Source: a virus
DNA length: 23,369 nucleotides
Strand: one strand, 5' to 3'
Virus record (IMG/VR): IMGVR_UViG_3300045918_000093
Coordinates: 1 to 23,369 of that record
Shown: in pieces, positions 1 to 23,369 of the stretch
How the letters are laid out: the number at the start of each line of letters is the position of its first letter
Position numbering within the stretch: position 1 is the stretch's first letter
The notes under the pieces: generated by a model
What the model saw: the letters and a program-made list of their open reading frames with translations, nothing else
The model's database searches: none
What the model was told of the DNA's origin: nothing
Position numbers and translations under genes: made by a program

Positions 1-3000
1 GAGGCGGTCGTCCCTAACTGCAATGTCAATGTGTTAACAGAGACTACACAGCCTGAAAGCACTGTACCGTAGTCCATTGTTTCAGAGTACGTACCAAGTG
101 CAGGAGGCGGCGCTGCAAAGCCTGGAGAACCTGCTGCAATCTGATCATTGACAACCTTCAGGCCACGCTTCACTGAAAGAATACCTGCCCCTGCAGCTGT
201 CACAGCAATCAACGCGCCTGTCTGCCCTGTAGTTACAAGTATCAGATTAAATGTGTTGGTGGTGAGCAGCTTGACATAGTAACCGACATTCGGGAAAATG
301 CCTGTGGGAAGTAGCAACGTGGAGCTGAAAGAGACAACATCCAAGTCGGCATAGCCGTGCGCCGTGACTGTAACAACTGTAGGGGTTGCAACTGTCAGTG
401 TAGCAACCTTCGACACGTCGGTGGAACCGTTCAAGAAGTGCTGTTGAAAGGTTGCGGAGGTGTCTACAGGCAGCAATACTGCGTTACCGTCCCAGAAGGC
501 ATTTGTGTATGTACCCAAGGTGAAATCACTATTGTAGTCTGCAACCAGCTGGAAATCAGGAGGTTGCGAAACAACAGCAGAGACACTTGTAGGTGCGCTT
601 TCGCCACCACCTGAATCTACCGCAGTGATCCAATAAATATACGTACCACCAGCGCTCTCAAACAGAGTAGTGAATTGGCCGGACTTTTCACCCACAAGAC
701 CAGAAGGCTGAAACGTGTTACCCTTGTAAATACGATAGGTACGGATCGGCAGCACAGAGCTCGGAGTACCCCAATACATCAATACATTATTGTCAATCAC
801 CTTTACTGTAAAGTTCGTAGGAGTAGACGGCAAGGCATATGACAGTGCAGCCTGCGTGATGGGACTTGCATTCCCATAGATATCTATTGCTCTAAAGAAG
901 TACGAAGGGATGTGATTCAAATCAACAGGCACTCTGAAGATGGTAGATTTAATCTTGCCTATTGTGACCATGCTCTGATCTAGCACTTCGTAGTAGTCAA
1001 TCCCCCAAGGATACTGCGGGGTATTCCACTCGAACAGAGCATCAGCACCTGACACAGAACCTTTGATTACAAGCGCAAGAGGACCTTCCAGTACTAAGGT
1101 AAATACACCTTCCACTGCCGAGTAATTTCCGAAGATGTCCAATGCCTTGACCATGTACGTGGTAGTTCCGGCAGATGTTGGTGGTAGTTTAAAGAAATTA
1201 CTGGTGATGCCTGCCTGGACCTCCACACCTGCATTCCATCCGAAATTACCCTTTCGTATCTCGTAGCTATCCAGACGAACTGTAGTGGTCGGAGTCCAAG
1301 CTGCAAGAATTCCGTCACTCACTACAGACATGCTAAAGTCTGCAATCCCAGGCGCGCTGAACCGTGTAGAGTCCACATACAAGATAGGCCAGCCTGCTTG
1401 TTTTGCTATCTGTCCTGTCCCTCTTGAAGCAACTGCAACAACATATGACTTACCTAGTGACGGCAGTTCAAACATAGTCTGTTGTACTGTAGCTAAGTCT
1501 TGCCAAACAGTATTTGCATTTATTGTAGCTATGGCATCGAAAGTGTACTTGATCACGTATTGAGAAACACGAATGTCTGCAGCTGCATCCCACACAAGGA
1601 AACCTGTGCCTAAGAAGCTGGTATTTGAGGTCGTGTCAATGCGAACATTGGAAGCTTGCGTGATACTGAAGTCATAGATATTGCGCTGGGCAACAACTTC
1701 ATTGTCTTTAGCATTCCATGCTAGATTAGCCGCATCATATTTCGTAGCAGAAATGTCAATTGAGCCCTCTTTGCTGGCCTTTACGGTGTCAATGCGCAGG
1801 ATCTCTCCTGGGATGCCAAGAACGGTGCTCGTGACATTAACAAGGTCACCTGGCTCTAGGTTAAATAAGGCTCTATCCAATGAGAGTTCATATGTAACGT
1901 TTGCACGAGAAGATCTGACACGTTGCTCTGCAGAAGCTAGCGCGTGATAGTAATCCACGCAGCCAGTCTCAAACGCTTCTGTCTCCAGAGGAAGTTGACT
2001 ATCTTGTGCACGATACGCATTATATACAGCTGTATCCGCATAAAGCACCCATGCAGGGTCAGAGGGTGGTGGCGTAGAACTCACCCTCGTGGCTCCGACA
2101 TACAACTGCCATAGCGAGTTACCTACCGGAGTGGTGTTTGCATTGTAATAGATATCTTGCAATGCCTGATACTGTGTATACACAGGGTACGACCAACGAG
2201 CAGGTGCTGGCATCGCTGCATTGTATGAAACTACATTGACGAGAGAACCTCTAGGATAGACAATTCCAGAGCGTGCCTGAAAATGCAGAGGCGGTTGCCA
2301 TGTCATCTCCCATGCACCATTTACTACCTGTGGTAACATGTAGGATCCATCCCCAGGATTCCAATTCCCGCTATAGATGGCTGCACCTAGTACTCTAACT
2401 GTACCTGTCTTTAGCTGATACTTTGTACCTGTATACGTCACAATGTCGGACTTGCCGTAGCCTGTATTAGCATTCCAAGCACCCATATCTATTTGGGGAC
2501 CTTCGATTGTACCAGTCTTCGGTGGCCAAGAAACGCTATCTTCAACAAAGTTTTGGGCTTCATTCAAGAACTTTACAGTGCAATAATTCAGGCGTGATTG
2601 TGCATTTGGCCAAGCAATATTATTTGGCGTCGCACGTACGAGGTGATCATCTGTGATGTAAGCAGCGATTACATTCTTTGCCCACGCTGTTGTATCTGAG
2701 GGCGATGTACCCGTATTACTGACAAGACACCTGTAAAACTCAGTGACGCCATTTGATGTGTATTGGACAACATCGTTTGTGACGTACGCAACATTAAGGT
2801 CGTACAGGTACGGGTAAAGTGTGTTGAGCTTATACACACCGCCTGCCCAAATCAATTCAGCCATTCCCATCGTTCCCAATATCAGGTCGATGTTTTCTCG
2901 AATTGTCTTTGTGGTGTCGATTCCTAAGTTACACTCATACAGCTTAATTGAACGGATACTGTTAGAAGATGCAAGACTCCCAGCACCGTTAACCAACAAA

Positions 3001-4238
3001 GAAATAACACCGCCACCTGGCGCGCTTGCGATTTGGAAAGTGTCCACTGTAGGGTTAACGACATAGTAATTCGTGTTCAACAAGAGCCCACTGTTCAAAG
3101 GCACCTTTGAGAATTTCACAACCGCACCGCTAGCTAGTCCATGCTTTGTGCATAAGATATTGTTGACAGTCATTACGAGATTCGGCAATGCAATTCTGAA
3201 ACCGCCGCTGGCAATTGGAGGTATTGTGACTGTAGCCTGAAATGTCAATTGCTTATCGGCAGTTAGCTTTGCTTTCCAAAACTTACCATCACAAGAGACA
3301 TCTGACATCACAACCTTGTCGCAAATATCTTGTGCATTCTTAAAGGAAAGTAAGTCGATCTGTTCAACAGGGAGGCCGCGACCATACACAGGGTTCGTGA
3401 GGTAGTCAAGAAGTACCAATGCTGGATTGTTCGAATATGTCTTTGCAGCAGACATTTGCCAAGCATTTCCTGTATATTCCAGATTAGCTATTTTCATGCC
3501 TTCCACATAGAACTGTAGATTTGGCACTCCCGAGTACTGAGGCTGGTCACGGTTCAAACGATAGACAGCAGTCGCGTATGCAGTATTCGTAAACAGGGCT
3601 GTAGCACGAGAGGGGTCATTTGCCACCATTAAAGGGTCGGCAACTCCGCCGTCTGTGTACACATGGATACGTTGACCATAGATGAATTCAGGACTGTCAT
3701 ATACGCGACTGTCCACATCTACTTGCACAATGGAATTAATACCTCCATAGCACAATGCCTGTTGCGTATATAGGAACTCATGCTTAGCACCGTTGACTGC
3801 TGAGCCTAATGAATAATTTACAAGGCTCGCAAGACTGAAAGCGCCTTTGGCGAAGATGTCGTACCATGCACTTGTGTCAGGGAAATACGACACGACAACA
3901 GGAGGCCCATTCGGATTTGCGGCGAAGCAAGTACCTCCAACTGCAGGTGCAGCTGGCGTGTATGTATTCATTGTGTTGTGATAAACGCGAGTGCCGCCCA
4001 CAAGATTGCGACCGTAGATCACACGTAGAGGTTGCGATTGACCTTCGGTAACCACGGAGGTGCCTTTGGCTGCATCTGCTCTTGCGATTGCTTCTGCTTG
4101 TGCTGCTGCTTGTCTCGCCTTGGCTGCTGCCGCTGCCTGTTGCTGGACGACCACAGATACTATAAATAAGACAGCTTGAGCAACAGTACCCCATGCAATT
4201 GCGGCACCTGTTGCATATGCTACAACTATACTAACCAT
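1..4238 (-). CDS. Tail tip / central fibre protein (lambda gpJ-like), 3' end cut off by window edge
   Basis: I checked this frame codon by codon: it is open from the ATG at 4238 to base 1, giving 1412 complete codons with no stop, so the C-terminus lies outside the window. AAAGGAG lies just upstream and the start overlaps the cupin gene stop by 8 nt. Residues 3-31 are hydrophobic and are followed by an Ala/Gln-rich stretch (32-58). Then comes GQSQPLRVIYGR (66-77), typical of gpJ-like tip proteins. Three aromatic-rich modules that look like carbohydrate-binding inserts lie near 477-520, 583-606 and 680-730. A GDLVNVTS...GEILRIDTV hub segment lies near 797-833. Three fibronectin type III-like repeats follow (about 966-1050, 1052-1135 and 1137-1225). 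A small beta module with an H-G-[LY]-A start occurs twice (about 360-405 and 1275-1345). The inferred role is the tail tip that closes the tube and contacts the receptor. Confidence 0.88.
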   Translation of the reverse strand, partial: MVSIVVAYATGAAIAWGTVAQAVLFIVSVVVQQQAAAAAKARQAAAQAEAIARADAAKGTSVVTEGQSQPLRVIYGRNLVGGTRVYHNTMNTYTPAAPAVGGTCFAANPNGPPVVVSYFPDTSAWYDIFAKGAFSLASLVNYSLGSAVNGAKHEFLYTQQALCYGGINSIVQVDVDSRVYDSPEFIYGQRIHVYTDGGVADPLMVANDPSRATALFTNTAYATAVYRLNRDQPQYSGVPNLQFYVEGMKIANLEYTGNAWQMSAAKTYSNNPALVLLDYLTNPVYGRGLPVEQIDLLSFKNAQDICDKVVMSDVSCDGKFWKAKLTADKQLTFQATVTIPPIASGGFRIALPNLVMTVNNILCTKHGLASGAVVKFSKVPLNSGLLLNTNYYVVNPTVDTFQIASAPGGGVISLLVNGAGSLASSNSIRSIKLYECNLGIDTTKTIRENIDLILGTMGMAELIWAGGVYKLNTLYPYLYDLNVAYVTNDVVQYTSNGVTEFYRCLVSNTGTSPSDTTAWAKNVIAAYITDDHLVRATPNNIAWPNAQSRLNYCTVKFLNEAQNFVEDSVSWPPKTGTIEGPQIDMGAWNANTGYGKSDIVTYTGTKYQLKTGTVRVLGAAIYSGNWNPGDGSYMLPQVVNGAWEMTWQPPLHFQARSGIVYPRGSLVNVVSYNAAMPAPARWSYPVYTQYQALQDIYYNANTTPVGNSLWQLYVGATRVSSTPPPSDPAWVLYADTAVYNAYRAQDSQLPLETEAFETGCVDYYHALASAEQRVRSSRANVTYELSLDRALFNLEPGDLVNVTSTVLGIPGEILRIDTVKASKEGSIDISATKYDAANLAWNAKDNEVVAQRNIYDFSITQASNVRIDTTSNTSFLGTGFLVWDAAADIRVSQYVIKYTFDAIATINANTVWQDLATVQQTMFELPSLGKSYVVAVASRGTGQIAKQAGWPILYVDSTRFSAPGIADFSMSVVSDGILAAWTPTTTVRLDSYEIRKGNFGWNAGVEVQAGITSNFFKLPPTSAGTTTYMVKALDIFGNYSAVEGVFTLVLEGPLALVIKGSVSGADALFEWNTPQYPWGIDYYEVLDQSMVTIGKIKSTIFRVPVDLNHIPSYFFRAIDIYGNASPITQAALSYALPSTPTNFTVKVIDNNVLMYWGTPSSVLPIRTYRIYKGNTFQPSGLVGEKSGQFTTLFESAGGTYIYWITAVDSGGGESAPTSVSAVVSQPPDFQLVADYNSDFTLGTYTNAFWDGNAVLLPVDTSATFQQHFLNGSTDVSKVATLTVATPTVVTVTAHGYADLDVVSFSSTLLLPTGIFPNVGYYVKLLTTNTFNLILVTTGQTGALIAVTAAGAGILSVKRGLKVVNDQIAAGSPGFAAPPPALGTYSETMDYGTVLSGCVVSVNTLTLQLGTTA

Positions 4239-16796: not shown

Positions 16797-17381
16797 TTAG
16801 GACGTGTACGCACCGTAGAACTCAGATTGCATCGAGAAGGTCAGAGTGGCAGTTGTGGCGTCAGTCAGTGAAGGCTTAACGATCAGTGCTTCCATACGAC
16901 CTACAAAGAACCACTGAGAGTTCTCCACAGTACCCAGACCAAGAGCGACTGAGGCATACTTTGTGGCAGCAGTTACACCCAAGCTGTCGCGATTCATCAA
17001 TGTGAAACGGAATGCGCGAGAGATACCGTCAGCAACAAAGAAACCAAGACCAACCGTCTTGTCCCAGTCAGCAGCTACGTAGTTGATCGTCAATTCCAGA
17101 TTCGGAGCATCAGACTGACCTTGAATCTGGCGAGACTGTTTAGCACCGTACGTAGGAACTTTGACGATATTAGCAGGAGCGCCAATAGCAGGAAAATCAC
17201 GGACGTTTGAAATACGCAGAAAACCACCTGCGATTGCCGCGTCAGAAACAGTACCGGTATCAGCAGTTGCAAAAAGCGCTTGGAAGCCAGCGACGTCATA
17301 GGTTGCGGGTACAATTGCAGTACCTACAGCCAGAGACAAGTCACTGAAAATACTTGCGCCAAGAGAGGAGACGTGAGCCAT
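16797..17381 (-). CDS. Tail tube protein, second paralogue
   Basis: The product has 194 residues and is a paralogue of the gene just upstream. Both share MAH[VL]SSLGASIF at the N-terminus, the core NVRDFPAIGAPANIVKVP followed by YGAKQS and GQSDAPNLELTINY, and a C-terminal block with EA[LI]IVKPSLTDATTAT plus FYGA. These are features of long-tailed phage tube subunits: an opening strand-loop, a beta sandwich and a C-terminal strand that packs between rings. This copy is 20 residues longer. The extra residues lie mainly in the N-terminal loop (about 20-55) and in the segment before the final block. The stop of the first copy is 12 nt upstream, with AAAGGAA as ribosome site. Whether it forms part of the tube shaft, a terminal ring or an alternative tube cannot be told from sequence. 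Confidence 0.85.
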   Translation of the reverse strand: MAHVSSLGASIFSDLSLAVGTAIVPATYDVAGFQALFATADTGTVSDAAIAGGFLRISNVRDFPAIGAPANIVKVPTYGAKQSRQIQGQSDAPNLELTINYVAADWDKTVGLGFFVADGISRAFRFTLMNRDSLGVTAATKYASVALGLGTVENSQWFFVGRMEALIVKPSLTDATTATLTFSMQSEFYGAYTS

Positions 17382-17393
17382 AGAGTTCCTTTA

Positions 17394-17918
17394 TTAAACA
17401 GCGACGTGAGTAAATGCGCCGTAGAAGTCCGACAGCATGGACAACGTAACGGTTGCAGTGGTTGCGTCTGTCAAAGATGGCTTAACGATGATAGCTTCCA
17501 GCTTACCTAACCAGTAGTAGCAAGAGTTATCTGTTGCCAGCTTGTTAGCAGCAGCGGTGACAACGGCAGCATTCATCAGAGCAAATCGTAACAACACAGG
17601 CGTATCGTTATCGATCAGATTCATCAGTGTGCCGCCAGATGCCCAATCAGAAGCGATGTAGTTGATCGTCAGTTCCAGATTAGGTGCATCGGACTGACCC
17701 ATGACCTGTTTCGATTGCTTAGCACCATAACCAGGTACTTTGACGATATTAGCAGGAGCGCCAATAGCAGGGAAGTCGCGAACGTTAGCAATAACCGAAC
17801 CGCCAGCTACGAAAGCCGTACCAAAATCAGTTGCAATACCTGTACCCGGAATTGCGGTAGCAGGTACATAGTTTAGCGTAGTAAAAATACTAGCGCCTAA
17901 AGACGACAAATGTGCCAT
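17394..17918 (-). CDS. Tail tube protein, first paralogue
   Basis: The product has 174 residues. It starts MAHLSSLGASIF and carries the shared core (NVRDFPAIGAPANIVKVP, GQSDAPNLELTINY) and the C-terminal VKPSLTDATTAT...FYGAFT block. It follows the tail terminator gene by 2 nt and has a GGAA ribosome site about 9 nt from its ATG. Gene order (terminator, tube, chaperones, tape measure) is the standard siphovirus layout, so tube identity is well supported even without a search. A 35-nt stretch is identical between this gene (17737-17771) and the second copy (17158-17192), which suggests a fairly recent duplication or gene conversion, because the rest has diverged at the DNA level. Confidence 0.87.
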   Translation of the reverse strand: MAHLSSLGASIFTTLNYVPATAIPGTGIATDFGTAFVAGGSVIANVRDFPAIGAPANIVKVPGYGAKQSKQVMGQSDAPNLELTINYIASDWASGGTLMNLIDNDTPVLLRFALMNAAVVTAAANKLATDNSCYYWLGKLEAIIVKPSLTDATTATVTLSMLSDFYGAFTHVAV

Positions 17919-19179: not shown

Positions 19180-20370
19180 TTAGCTATGGAACACAGGCAA
19201 GATACCCAGGCTCAATGCAGATGCAGCCTTACGTTCCCACGTACCAGAAACAGCGCCAGTAGCCAAACCGGAGGTAGCGGCAGTCAGCAGCATAGGCGAA
19301 CCAGCTTGTACGATCTTTGAGTAGTCGGTATCAGCAGGGAACACGCTTTCGGAACCGATCCAGTTGTAACCCTGAGGTGCGATCACATAGCCCCAACGAT
19401 GCCAGATAGAGGTAGCACCACCGCCAGCGAACGCACGAGCGTCACGGAAGATTTCTACCGAATCAGGAACATCTAGCATAGCCATAGCCAATGCGCCAGG
19501 AGCGACCAAGAACGAGGTCTTAGTACCGATGATGTCAACACCAGCGCCAGAGTTGATCATAGTCAATTGGGCGGATGTCATGCCTTGTGTTGCGCGAGAC
19601 TGGATCAAACGGATTTTGCCGCCGAAGATGGTGCTGAAGACTACGTTACCTTCGGTGATTGTGTTGTCGTTCACCAGATTAGCAGAACGCAACGAAGCGA
19701 ACACTTCAGGAGAAGTAACCAAGTACATGTACTCTGGCTCGTAGTCTTTGAAAGCCATAGAGATAGCGTTCAGGAAGCCTTCAGCTCGAGCAGCACCTTG
19801 TACCGCAACAGTAGCGGCAATAACAGGGGTAGCAGTACCCAAGTCAACGTAGAAGCCGTAACGCTTGTCTGCTGGGTCATTGGTGAAAGATTGACCGCCT
19901 AGACCAGCAGCACCGGAACCAGCAGCAGCACCGTTCAGGGCTTCAGTGATTGCAACACCCTTCATAACTGCCAAAATAGCGTTATGTTCGTCTTGTGCCT
20001 GAGTTTCAGCAAAGTCACGACCGATCTTAGCCAGCCCGTCGACTTGCGTAACGATTTGTTGCATGTTGACCTTGGTAGCACCGTGTGTACGGACAGTCTT
20101 GATGTAACGCAAGAAGTCAGAGGTGTAAGTCGAGTTGGTACCATTCGTTGCATCAGTCAGGTTAGCAACATTGATAACCGGATTGATAGGCTTGTACCAA
20201 CGAACTTGACCCAGGAAGGTTTCAGTCGAGGTGTCAATTTCAGGATTCGTGCCAACGATACCGGTGCCGGACAGTTTCTTGGCATTGGTATACGCTTCAT
20301 CACGGTAAGCGCTGATAGCAGATTGTAATACAAAGTTATCAGCACCAGCCAAATTGGTAGTAAGAGCCAT
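19180..20370 (-). CDS. Major capsid protein
   Basis: The product has 396 residues and directly follows the scaffold gene, with AGGAA upstream of the ATG. Recognisable regions are a start rich in small residues (ALTTNLAGADNFVLQSAIS), an arm-like segment (EIDTSTETFLGQVRWYKPIN), a long helix (GRDFAETQAQDEHNAILAVM) and a probable flexible G/A loop (GAAAGSGAAGLGGQSFTND). Then come MYLVTSPEVFASLRSANLVN, GKIRLIQSR and VEIFRDARAFAGGG, with SIWHRWGYVIAPQGYNW near the end. The last pattern, in which a beta strand with R-W-G-Y-V is followed by P-x-G-Y-x-W, is common in capsid proteins of long-tailed phages. No N-terminal protease-processed scaffold domain is fused, consistent with the separate scaffold gene. 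The HK97 fold is inferred. Confidence 0.9.
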   Translation of the reverse strand: MALTTNLAGADNFVLQSAISAYRDEAYTNAKKLSGTGIVGTNPEIDTSTETFLGQVRWYKPINPVINVANLTDATNGTNSTYTSDFLRYIKTVRTHGATKVNMQQIVTQVDGLAKIGRDFAETQAQDEHNAILAVMKGVAITEALNGAAAGSGAAGLGGQSFTNDPADKRYGFYVDLGTATPVIAATVAVQGAARAEGFLNAISMAFKDYEPEYMYLVTSPEVFASLRSANLVNDNTITEGNVVFSTIFGGKIRLIQSRATQGMTSAQLTMINSGAGVDIIGTKTSFLVAPGALAMAMLDVPDSVEIFRDARAFAGGGATSIWHRWGYVIAPQGYNWIGSESVFPADTDYSKIVQAGSPMLLTAATSGLATGAVSGTWERKAASALSLGILPVFHS

Positions 20371-20416: not shown

Positions 20417-21166
20417 TTAGCGTTTTGGGAGTTTGCCTTCACGAGCAAGCTTGAGAACTTCATCTTGCGACATCGCAAATAATGAGTCACTCTTCTTGCT
20501 CTGTGCGGTTGTTGCAGCTTCTTGTGTGCCGCCGCCTGAATTGGCACGTGCTTTGAACAAGAACGCCATGTCATCATTCTTAGCAAAAGCCTCGACGTAA
20601 CTTGACACAGAAATACCTGAGCGATGTACCCAAGCACCCTGTTCGTTTTGAACCAATTGAGCAACGATTTCTCTGTAAGCCATGTCGACTGCAGCAGGAC
20701 TACGGAAAGGGAGTGTGCCCAAAGAGTTACGAACAACAGCATCGCGTGACAGTTCAGTGTTCTTGCGTTCAGCTTCGGCCAACTTTGCGTTAGTCTCAGC
20801 CAGCTTGATTTCGTATACCTCTTTGTGCTTACCCTCTTCTTCGAGACGCTTGATCGTAGCTTCACGTTCCTTACGTTCGAATTCTGCAGCCTTTGCTAGA
20901 GCTTCATCACGTACCTTGTAGGAAGCATCCAGCTTGCGCTTGATTTCTGCCAGTTCGGAAGTCACCTTTTCTTGCACACGAGTTTCAACAAGACGTTTTA
21001 CCATCTCGTCATCCTGCTCGCTACCTTTACCTACATTCTTAGCAATCTCTGCCAAGCGTTCGGCCTCTGCTTCGGCTGCAATACGTGATGCTTCTGCACG
21101 TTCCAGTTCGAGCTTCTTTGCTTCAAGGTCTGCAATACGCTTTGCTTCCAGTTCTTCGGGACTCAT
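20417..21166 (-). CDS. Capsid scaffolding protein
   Basis: The product has 249 residues. It is almost all charged coiled coil from residue 2 to about 150 (LEAKRIADLEAKKLELERAE, then AAEFERKEREATIKRLEEEG and ETNAKLAEAERKNTELSRDA). A helical middle follows (PAAVDMAYREIVAQLVQN), then a Ser/Gly/Thr/Gln linker and a short basic C-terminal helix ending LAREGKLPKR. A coiled-coil rod plus a basic C-terminal helix that binds the capsid subunit is the usual scaffold build. The gene sits immediately before the major capsid gene. The start has only a weak AGAAAG ribosome site, preceded by a 167-nt gap. I see no protease catalytic motif, so any prohead protease must be encoded elsewhere. Confidence 0.87.
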   Translation of the reverse strand: MSPEELEAKRIADLEAKKLELERAEASRIAAEAEAERLAEIAKNVGKGSEQDDEMVKRLVETRVQEKVTSELAEIKRKLDASYKVRDEALAKAAEFERKEREATIKRLEEEGKHKEVYEIKLAETNAKLAEAERKNTELSRDAVVRNSLGTLPFRSPAAVDMAYREIVAQLVQNEQGAWVHRSGISVSSYVEAFAKNDDMAFLFKARANSGGGTQEAATTAQSKKSDSLFAMSQDEVLKLAREGKLPKR

Positions 21167-21333: not shown

Positions 21334-21956
21334 TCAACCTACTCCGTAGAAACCTCGATTCGATTCAAAACCCCTAGGAACATCCTGCAGGATATCTTCA
21401 CGTTTCAAGATGTCACTTTCTTTCAATACCTTACCTCCAATTACACTACGCCCAGGAACAGGAATGAGACCTGTGTCAACAGCTTCGTTCAAATATCGGT
21501 AATATAATTCATCTGGCAGACCTCGGCCGTGCATTTCGTCGAGCGTCTTAAGAACAGAGTTTGCTTCTAAAGCGTCAGCATAAATAACCCGCAGAGCGTC
21601 TCGTGCTCTAAGCATGTCTGCAGCATTTGTGAGGAACGCATCATGTACTGTTGAAGTAGGAATCTTTGCATTCGCGCCCCATATGTGGAACTGTTTGACA
21701 AGAGTAGCGTCGTTCGAGTGATTGCCATTAACTGCGAAGGCAGTCCTAGCTTTTCCAGTGTCTGCAATGTCGTTAATCTTACCATCTTTATTTCTAAACT
21801 CTTCCCACCAAGTTGGATCTGTTTTCTGTTGAATCTGGAGAACGTTGTTGACCCATTTTCCATCAGCATCTTTGTATGCAAGCTTTTCCTCGAAGACCTG
21901 AGTGAAATTCTGTTCGATAGTCTTTCCGTCAAAGTTGACCCCGATAATGTTCAACA
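21334..21956 (-). CDS. 3' exon: C-terminal part of a T7-type single-subunit RNA polymerase-like protein
   Basis: This reading frame has no good start: an in-frame TAA lies just upstream and the first possible start is a GTG without a ribosome site, so I read it as the second exon of an interrupted gene. Residues about 62-110 fit the end of the T7 polymerase palm. INDIADTGKARTAFAVN is followed by GNHSNDATLVKQFHIWG and STVHDAFLTNAADML, parallel to T7's NFVHSQDGSHL and the LIHDSFGT motif C, where His811 and catalytic Asp812 lie. The H-D pair and the upstream N-H-S-x-D-A/G-T/S are both kept. About 100 residues follow, more than T7's roughly 70 (GRGLPDELYYRYLNEAVDTG, then EDILQDVPRGFESNRGFYG). If spliced as I propose, the protein joint reads SNVP-L-LNIIG. 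Position next to the scaffold and capsid genes is unusual for an RNA polymerase and suggests a virion-carried enzyme. Confidence 0.65.
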
Positions 21957-21993
21957 CTGCCCGTTAAGCAATGCCAGTAACTCGCTAAGTTAT

Positions 21994-22653
21994 TTAATAA
22001 TTAATCCAAGTTTTACCGTTAATAATACTTGAGATTGTACCACCAGCTACACCGAAAAGTGTGCCAATAGTTTCTTGTGAATATCCCTCTCTGTACAATG
22101 TACGAATTTCTGGGATGTTTTCTGCAGATAATTTCTTACAGCCTGTGGCACTTCTTGAATATTCAAAATCTACAATGACGTGCTTCCAAGAGTTGCCTAA
22201 GCGTATTTGTGAAATACACTTACGACCTACACCATACACTTCAGCAATAGCTACATTAGAGAGCCCTTGTGCAAATAATTCTTTTATGCAAGTAACACGA
22301 ACCTCGTCTAGTATCGCAAGGTGACTTTCAGAGCCACATGTAAGAAGATTGTGCGCAGAAGCGTGTGACATATTTTCAGCATTGGTTACCCACTCCAAAT
22401 TCTCTGCTCGGTTATCTGTCTTTACTCCGTTCTTATGGTTGACTTGCAACCAAGGAAATGCTTTCAGGAGAAATACACTTGCAACCAATACATGTACTTT
22501 CGTAGTGCGTTTTACTGCGCCTAGGTACACAGACATCTCTGGATAACCGTCTTTATCGAGCCAAGACGCGATAACCAGACCTTTCTTGTTCTTAACACGA
22601 CCTGCATCGCTAACAAAGTAATTAGCGTTATACTCTTTCCAAATTTCTTCCAT
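21994..22653 (-). CDS. HNH homing endonuclease (NUMOD4-HNH with two HTH modules)
   Basis: The product has 219 residues from the ATG at 22653, preferred because GAGAGG lies 6 nt upstream. A longer open frame to 22764 would run through conserved intron core sequence. Order: NUMOD4 at 2-40 (EEIWKEYNANYFVSDAGRVK, then a KDGYP turn); HNH at about 50-95, with His54, Asn72-His73 and Asn81 (KVHVLVASVFL, then VNHKNGVKTDNRAENLEWVT and NAENMSHA); then two similar DNA-binding helix-turn-helix units at about 114-160 and 174-219 (IKELFAQGLSNVAIAEVYGV; IRTLYREGYSQETIGTLFGV). Such enzymes cut intron-less alleles near the insertion site and so spread the intron. All key HNH residues are present, so it is probably active. 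It is the only gene inside the intron. Confidence 0.93.
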   Translation of the reverse strand: MEEIWKEYNANYFVSDAGRVKNKKGLVIASWLDKDGYPEMSVYLGAVKRTTKVHVLVASVFLLKAFPWLQVNHKNGVKTDNRAENLEWVTNAENMSHASAHNLLTCGSESHLAILDEVRVTCIKELFAQGLSNVAIAEVYGVGRKCISQIRLGNSWKHVIVDFEYSRSATGCKKLSAENIPEIRTLYREGYSQETIGTLFGVAGGTISSIINGKTWINY

Positions 22654-22722
22654 CTCAAACCTCTCGTAGTGCTTAGCGAGCACATCTACAATTTCTAACA
22701 GCGATGCTGTATTATATGTAGT

Positions 22723-22944
22723 CCAGATCATATCATCACCCCGAAGGGTGTTACGCGCTTCCAACTCACTTGAGTTGTATAGACTTCATCGCCATATTAT
22801 AAACTTAGGCGGTATGTCTTGATCGTTGCACCTTCAAGTCCATTTCTGAACGAGCTTGGCTCAGTATTGTCCATTAACGTATGGAGTTCCACTGAATTCA
22901 CGTAATTATTCGATACACATCACTGTGTAAAGCCTCTAATTTTA
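22723..22944 (-). ncRNA. Group I intron catalytic core (IA-type)
   Basis: In RNA order the following can be paired by hand. P2 is UACACA-GUGA-UGUGUA, closed by a GUGA loop. P3 is UUACGUG with CGCGUAA. P4 is CAGUG with UACUG. P5 is UCCAU with AUGGA. The P6 side is GCC with GGU. P7 is GAUCA with UGAUC. P8 is CACCC-UUCG-GGGUG (22750-22737). The conserved strings AATACTGAGCCAAGC (22868-22854) and GAAGGTGCAACGATCAAGAC (22835-22816) match the Q and R elements. Two extra hairpins, CGCC..GGCG and CAACUC-AAGU-GAGUUG (22777-22762), sit between P7 and P3', as P7.1/P7.2 do in IA introns. Confidence 0.88.
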
Positions 22945-23369
22945 AAGGAACATTTGACCAACTCTTCGGTAGCTTATTTGGATACCCAATTTCAATACCT
23001 TTCGTTATGTCTTCACTGAACAGAGAATACTTACCTACCTTGGTACCTGTACGTCTTATCTCAGATGCGCGAATGCCAAACATAAGCTTATCAAGATCAC
23101 CTTGCGGTATCCATCCAGGTATCCTACTAAGCAACTTCTCTCGCATTGACTCATCTTTAATTCCGAGTATCTGGCTCAACCATTTAGGCAATCGCTTACC
23201 TGCGTAGTATTCGCCATAAACCGCTGTCTGTAAGCCTTCACTGTAAGCAAAAGCTGCATGTTTAGGTTTGGCATTATTGATAAAGTCCTCAGCAAGCCGT
23301 CCAAAGAACTTTGTGAAATTCTTAAGGACAGGCACTTGTTCAGAGAGATGGCTGCTCATAATGAAACCG
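22945..23369 (-). CDS. 5' exon of the interrupted gene (5' end outside window)
   Basis: The frame is open through the right edge (the last in-window codons read G-F-I-M), so the ATG at 23359 is probably internal and the gene begins outside the window. The frame runs on to a stop at 22898, but those last codons lie inside the group I intron. The 5' splice site I favour is after base 22945, in CCTT|T. The part seen contains FTKFFGRLAEDFINNAK, HAAFAYSEGLQTAVYGEYYA, RLPKWLSQILGI and LLSRIPGWIPQGDLDKLMFG, then IGYPNKLPKSWSNVP at the exon end. I cannot align this segment with a known polymerase region. It would correspond to the part between motifs B and C, which is variable in this family. It may belong to a much larger protein. 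Confidence 0.6.

Follow-up and report, generated by a model that had tools for sequence, protein, structure and literature searches.

A phage gene for a T7-type RNA polymerase, fused to a MuF head domain in relatives, is interrupted by a group IA-type intron carrying an HNH gene

Results

A group I intron interrupts a polymerase gene next to the head genes

The window analysed here is the whole 23,369-nt stretch of the IMG/VR virus record IMGVR_UViG_3300045918_000093. Its minus strand carries a group I intron of 1003 nt (22944-21942) with a nested HNH gene, flanked by the two exons of a polymerase gene that lies beside the genes for the head scaffolding protein and the major head protein (Table 1). 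Roughly the last 344 codons of this host gene are visible, the 5' exon leaving the window at 23369. Of the polymerase motifs, the window contains motif C; motifs A and B, like the MuF part, would lie past its end. Two tandem similar major-tail-like proteins (phrog_158), possibly a duplication, are encoded at 16797-17381 and 17394-17918.

Table 1. Features of the intron, its host gene and the neighbouring head genes in the window.
Feature	Position	Strand	Evidence
Major head protein	19180..20370	-	phrog_247
Head scaffolding protein	20417..21166	-	phrog_206
3' exon, RNA polymerase C-terminal part with motif C (VHDAF)	21334..21941	-	PF00940 5.6e-6; phrog_414 3e-8
1003-nt group I intron, preceded by an exon U and ending in G	21942..22944	-	joint fixed by intron-free L004; 162 contigs uninterrupted at the same site
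Intron 3' tail UUGAACAUUAUCG	21942..21954	-	13-nt spacing also in Vibrio phage terminase and RNAP2 introns
Terminal hairpin GGCAUUGC/GCAGUGUU, enclosing the splice site of the sequence-only reading	21953..21975	-	fold
Gene for a 219-aa HNH homing endonuclease, located on the P9 side	21994..22653	-	HNH_3 1.5e-9; phrog_59 2e-49; Bacillus phage relatives
Ribosome-binding-like GAGAGG upstream of the HNH gene	22660..22665	-	sequence
Ribozyme core P1-P8 with P7.1 and P7.2	22720..22948	-	Rfam RF00028 46.3 bits; covariation
P7 3' strand UGAUC	22726..22730	-	sequence; covariation
P7 5' strand GAUCA	22820..22824	-	differs from relatives by two compensating pairs
5' exon of the RNA polymerase part, truncated at the window end	22945..23369	-	38.6% identical to EBPR siphovirus 1 gp49; in frame with L004

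The ribozyme core is conserved by compensatory changes

The Rfam Intron_gpI model was aligned from end to end with the minus strand at 22954-22706, with a score of 46.3 bits (E 4.2e-10) that is slightly below the gathering score of 50. Covariation was studied in five introns, namely that of the window, three from relatives of the host gene (L022, L103 and L150) and one from a Vibrio phage terminase gene (L087). The 38 core pairs counted belong to P3, P4, P5, P6, P7, P7.1, P7.2 and P8, including the P3/P7 pseudoknot. All 177 of the 177 cells were paired (100%), a level reached by none of 500 shuffles, and in a control in which the partners were slid by 1-3 columns only 29-42% remained paired; as the structure had been modelled on the window itself, the percentage of paired cells favours the window row. 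Changes on both sides of a pair, which are unaffected by that bias, were found at 25 of the 38 pairs. In P7, the window differs from the other four introns by two compensating pairs. The presence of the extra hairpins P7.1 and P7.2 places the window intron with the IA introns, and its borders follow the group I rules, with a U.G pair at the 5' splice site and a terminal G. These results support a group IA-type intron that is predicted to be self-splicing.

The nested ORF starts 3' of the P7 3' strand (ATG 22653) and stops at 21994. Its product matched HNH_3 (37.8 bits) and HTH_38 (33.5 bits), both above the cut-offs, and may be called NUMOD4-like, with a NUMOD4 match of 20.5 bits that is below the cut-off of 23.4. 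The closest relatives in the phage collection are Bacillus phage HNH homing endonucleases, 39% identical, and a protein query of IMG/VR found no close relatives. Cognate alleles that are free of the intron exist (L004; 162 contigs).

A sequence-only reading of this DNA had described a nearly complete group IA core with P7.1 and P7.2, as well as a full HNH gene with its own ribosome site. Both descriptions were borne out, the former by the covariation, both hairpins and the covariance search with Intron_gpI that had been put forward as a check, which gave the match just under the gathering score, and the latter by the HNH_3 match, the ATG and a plausible ribosome site, GAGAGG at 22665-22660.

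Intron-free relatives define the exon joint

The borders of the intron were obtained by comparison with L004, an intron-free sister contig whose protein is 92% identical over the 3' exon. In L004, GTGCCTTGGGTTAAC stands in place of the GTTCCTT, intron and GGGTCAAC of the window, which gives an intron of 1003 nt (22944-21942) ending in G and a joint NVP-W-VNFDG (CCT T|GG GTC in DNA). The 5' splice site is thus located after U22945, where P1 pairs CCUU with GAGG and contains the U.G pair, and the 3' splice site after 21942. At the joint, 97 loci have the peptide NVPWVNFDG and 27 have NIPWVNFDG; of the 165 distinct contigs, 162 are uninterrupted through the insertion site. Comparison of the joined exons with L004 over 265 common codons gave 115 silent and 23 replacement differences and no gap, indicating that they form one protein under constraint. 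A single intron-free stretch that matches both window exons is also found in EBPR siphovirus 1 gp49.

The sequence-only reading had placed the intron at 21957-22944, with an in-frame joint NVP-L-LNIIG. Its 5' border and the rejoining into one continuous protein agree with gp49 and with the gapless L004 alignment, whereas the intron actually ends 15 nt further on, at 21942, and the joint is NVP-W-VNFDG. A comparison with intron-less relatives at the joint had been proposed, and L004 and 162 contigs run through it; relatives with two separate, complete genes, named beforehand as evidence against an intron, were looked for, and one continuous protein was found instead. A 3' splice site at 21957 was rejected, as it falls inside the hairpin 21975-21953 and would add five residues that are absent from the relatives. 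Counterparts of the intron tail are UUGAACACAACUG in the Vibrio terminase intron and UUGAACAUUAGUG in the RNAP2 intron of Vibrio phi 1, each of 13 nt like that of the window.

In relatives the polymerase is fused to a MuF domain

Intact relatives of the host gene encode a single protein of ~1,500 aa, in which an N-terminal MuF minor head domain is joined to the polymerase. The homologue from Roseophage DSS3_VP1 is one ORF of 1463 aa with MuF (PF04233) at its N-terminus and RNA_pol (PF00940) at its C-terminus, annotated as 'minor head protein-like protein', and L017 has an intact ORF of 1524 aa with both Pfam domains. Forty-five distinct contigs align without interruption from MuF through the C-terminus, and a scan of IMG/VR confirmed at least 528 stretches encoding the family. 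The MuF-RNAP fusion is common in uncultured phages. The annotated records that were found label the family as head or hypothetical protein, not as polymerase, and a search confined to the open-licence literature found no published description of the fusion.

A PDB sequence search gave no meaningful match, and one was obtained by fold comparison only. An AlphaFold2 model of the polymerase part of L017 (pLDDT 82.5, pTM 0.82) was aligned with T7 and mitochondrial RNA polymerases over ~800 columns, with E ~1e-15 and a probability of 1.0 but a TM of only ~0.5. The Asp of motif A, the Lys and Tyr of motif B (eight residues apart) and the His-Asp of motif C were invariant in 44 relatives, these motifs being what we take them to be from general knowledge of T7 RNAP. 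The window exons are the predicted C-terminus of a T7-type single-subunit RNA polymerase.

The gene order is portal (EBPR gp46, phrog_145), MuF-RNAP, scaffold and major head protein. MuF genes are usually located between the portal and the scaffold or major head protein genes, and the MuF fusion explains why a polymerase gene is present in a structural cluster. The polymerase-like host gene that the sequence-only reading had noticed beside the capsid genes is thereby sharpened to a T7-type RNAP, MuF-fused in relatives. Its place in a structural cluster, regarded there as less common for an intron host, is accounted for by the fusion, and introns in phage terminase and capsid genes were already known (PMC11878797, PMC7886860).

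Some relatives have insertions of 108-233 aa near motif A and behind motif B of the polymerase (L023 4477-4911, L030 4657-4980, L073 1143-1841 and others); these are in frame, contain no stops and gave no Pfam match at cut-off. Gaps near L017 residues 970 and 1089 were considered as introns and rejected, being stop-free in-frame insertions.

Introns occupy eight sites across the polymerase family

At least one stop-containing insertion with group I features was found in the RNAP gene of about 32 of the 165 distinct contigs, a frequency that is not an estimate, since sampling was biased by one search pattern that needs an intact 1322 site and another that needs an intact 1395 region. Rfam found eleven introns in nine of these loci (56-97 bits), and others were identified besides. 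In L017 numbering, the motif B region has sites 1026, 1057, 1060, 1064 and 1066; two more are 1395 and 1423, the latter immediately behind the motif C Asp. These seven sites lie around motifs B and C, and the 1322 site of the window intron brings the number in this RNAP family to eight. Four introns are present in the gene of L189, and two in each of those of L103, L145 and L137. At 11 of the 12 junctions in the protein-alignment set, a T precedes the intron and a G ends it. In the sole exception, L122 at site 1060, the intron ends in A, and the true border may differ.

Interruptions of the 1322 site elsewhere in IMG/VR were sought by a separate pattern scan, which gave eight matches, none of them in an RNAP gene, and the insertion site of the window looks rare. 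The window intron is a further example of a known intron type, at a new site. In the intron tree, introns from different sites are intermixed, which indicates that introns have moved between sites or phages. The window intron adjoins the Vibrio phage terminase intron with modest support. A jump from the motif-B site of the same gene, which has the same CCTT target and a similar P1, was considered and received no support from the tree.

Several of the other introns showed features of their own. L189 (IMGVR_UViG_3300028410_000014, minus strand, about 920-3120 of the reversed locus) contains group I introns of 251-349 nt at sites 1026, 1060, 1064 and 1395, in which no endonuclease gene was seen. 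L145 has a 765-nt group I intron at site 1423, after CACGAT| (the catalytic Asp of motif C), and a second at 1060. In the motif-B introns of L002 (7225-7236) and L009 (5225-5236), the TGA that closes the HNH frame seems to lie across the 3' splice site. The exon end AAGGCT is shared by the three nearby sites 1026, 1057 and 1060 (L189, L106), and CCTT by site 1066 and the 1322 site of the window. The exon ends are repeated as if matches to the guide sequence had permitted new insertions.

Discussion

We favour, with a probability of roughly 85%, a mobile IA intron with an HNH gene in the gene of a MuF-T7-type RNAP, including its proposed splicing, homing and delivery with the head. The ribozyme core, the joint, the one protein, the HNH domain, the intron-free relatives and the MuF-RNAP of the relatives are read from sequence; self-splicing, homing by the HNH enzyme, packaging in the head with entry, and early transcription are what we infer as their best explanation. 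The intron would splice itself out through the two-step guanosine reaction, leaving NVP-W-VNFDG. The HNH enzyme would cut or nick the intron-free allele of co-infecting relatives, and repair of that allele would copy the intron into it. The fused protein would be built into the head through MuF and would enter the cell with the DNA, where the polymerase would transcribe early genes. The fusion and the gene order, by analogy with N4 vRNAP and the tape-measure RNAP of P23-45, suggest that the fused polymerase may be delivered by the virion.

It is also conceivable, although we regard it as unlikely, that the intron and its HNH gene are real and that virion delivery of the polymerase does not take place: the fusion may be cleaved, or the RNAP may act only once it is synthesised late, or serve in packaging. 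The position of the gene in a late structural cluster and a size that is very large for a MuF protein would suit such a case, but in 45 contigs a single unbroken ORF spans MuF and the polymerase, and packaging of a polymerase joined to a structural protein is known from other phages (PMC10770324; N4). A degenerate intron that has lost splicing, so that this copy of the polymerase gene is broken, is very improbable. The two compensating changes in P7 with every counted core pair intact, the strong protein constraint on both exons and the exact U and G borders argue against it, despite an Rfam score slightly under threshold and an insertion site that the IMG/VR scan found nowhere else. We give almost no credence to an arrangement without an intron, in which a free-standing HNH gene would separate two distinct genes: EBPR siphovirus 1 is so annotated (gp47, gp48, gp49), yet the interruption there is likewise a group I intron, located at motif B, and the intact relatives are single ORFs.

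The mobile intron in a virion-delivered polymerase gene that we propose may be compared with several known systems. Phage polymerase genes that contain HNH-bearing introns have been described before, the most pertinent case being PhiPA3 gp210, an HNH intron endonuclease encoded in a virion RNAP gene, which nicks the virion polymerase gene of a rival (PMC11620839). In both cases, a conserved site of a phage RNAP gene is occupied by a group I intron that carries an HNH gene and probably has an advantage over intron-free rivals. They differ in the polymerase, which is a multisubunit-type beta subunit in PhiPA3 and a T7-type single-subunit enzyme with MuF here, and in that cutting, predicted for the window HNH protein, was demonstrated for PhiPA3.

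N4 vRNAP and the P23-45 tape-measure RNAP (PMC5512222, PMC10770324) likewise combine polymerase and virion parts in one polypeptide encoded among structural genes. However, the domains that flank N4 vRNAP are different ones, and in P23-45 the tape measure is joined to an unrelated polymerase of the two-barrel type; here, the partner of the T7-type enzyme is MuF. In a survey of polyvalent proteins, N4-like virion RNAPs were found only in N4-like phages or prophages, and MuF domains fused to many effectors were already known (PMC5512222). The predicted host protein is a new variant of structurally fused phage polymerase.

Twort, Bastillevirinae (PMC11878797) and crAss-like phages (PMC7886860) likewise have several group I introns in one core gene, although the host genes differ. 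Here, they occupy eight sites across one RNAP family, with four introns in a single gene (L189).

On balance, the data lean towards a large uncultured lineage of tailed phages that would deliver a T7-type RNAP in its MuF head protein, a previously undescribed kind of virion polymerase, and whose RNAP gene would be an intron hotspot, many of the introns carrying endonucleases, with at least eight sites and up to four introns per gene. If the fusion is packaged, these phages would begin transcription with their own head-carried polymerase. The gene is also well suited to studying why homing introns accumulate at catalytic motifs, as well as the idea that intron endonucleases act against co-infecting relatives (PMC11620839). 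The introns make gene callers split the MuF-RNAP protein.

Related introns occur in Vibrio phages. The RNAP2 introns of the N4-like Vibrio phages phi 1 and pVco-5 have a related core (77% over 93 nt for pVco-5) and resemble the window intron in their CCTT exon end and, for phi 1, in the 13-nt tail spacing. They are located at motif B of a non-virion polymerase, and their endonuclease gene lies inside the core (P6-P7), whereas that of the window follows the core. The terminase intron of Vibrio phage 249E41-1, the nearest in the tree, has 74% over 171 columns and the same tail, in a different host gene. The terminase ORF of this phage (L087 2161-3006) contains, besides the intron at its end, an intein-like stretch, CVDKDTEVLTKKGW.
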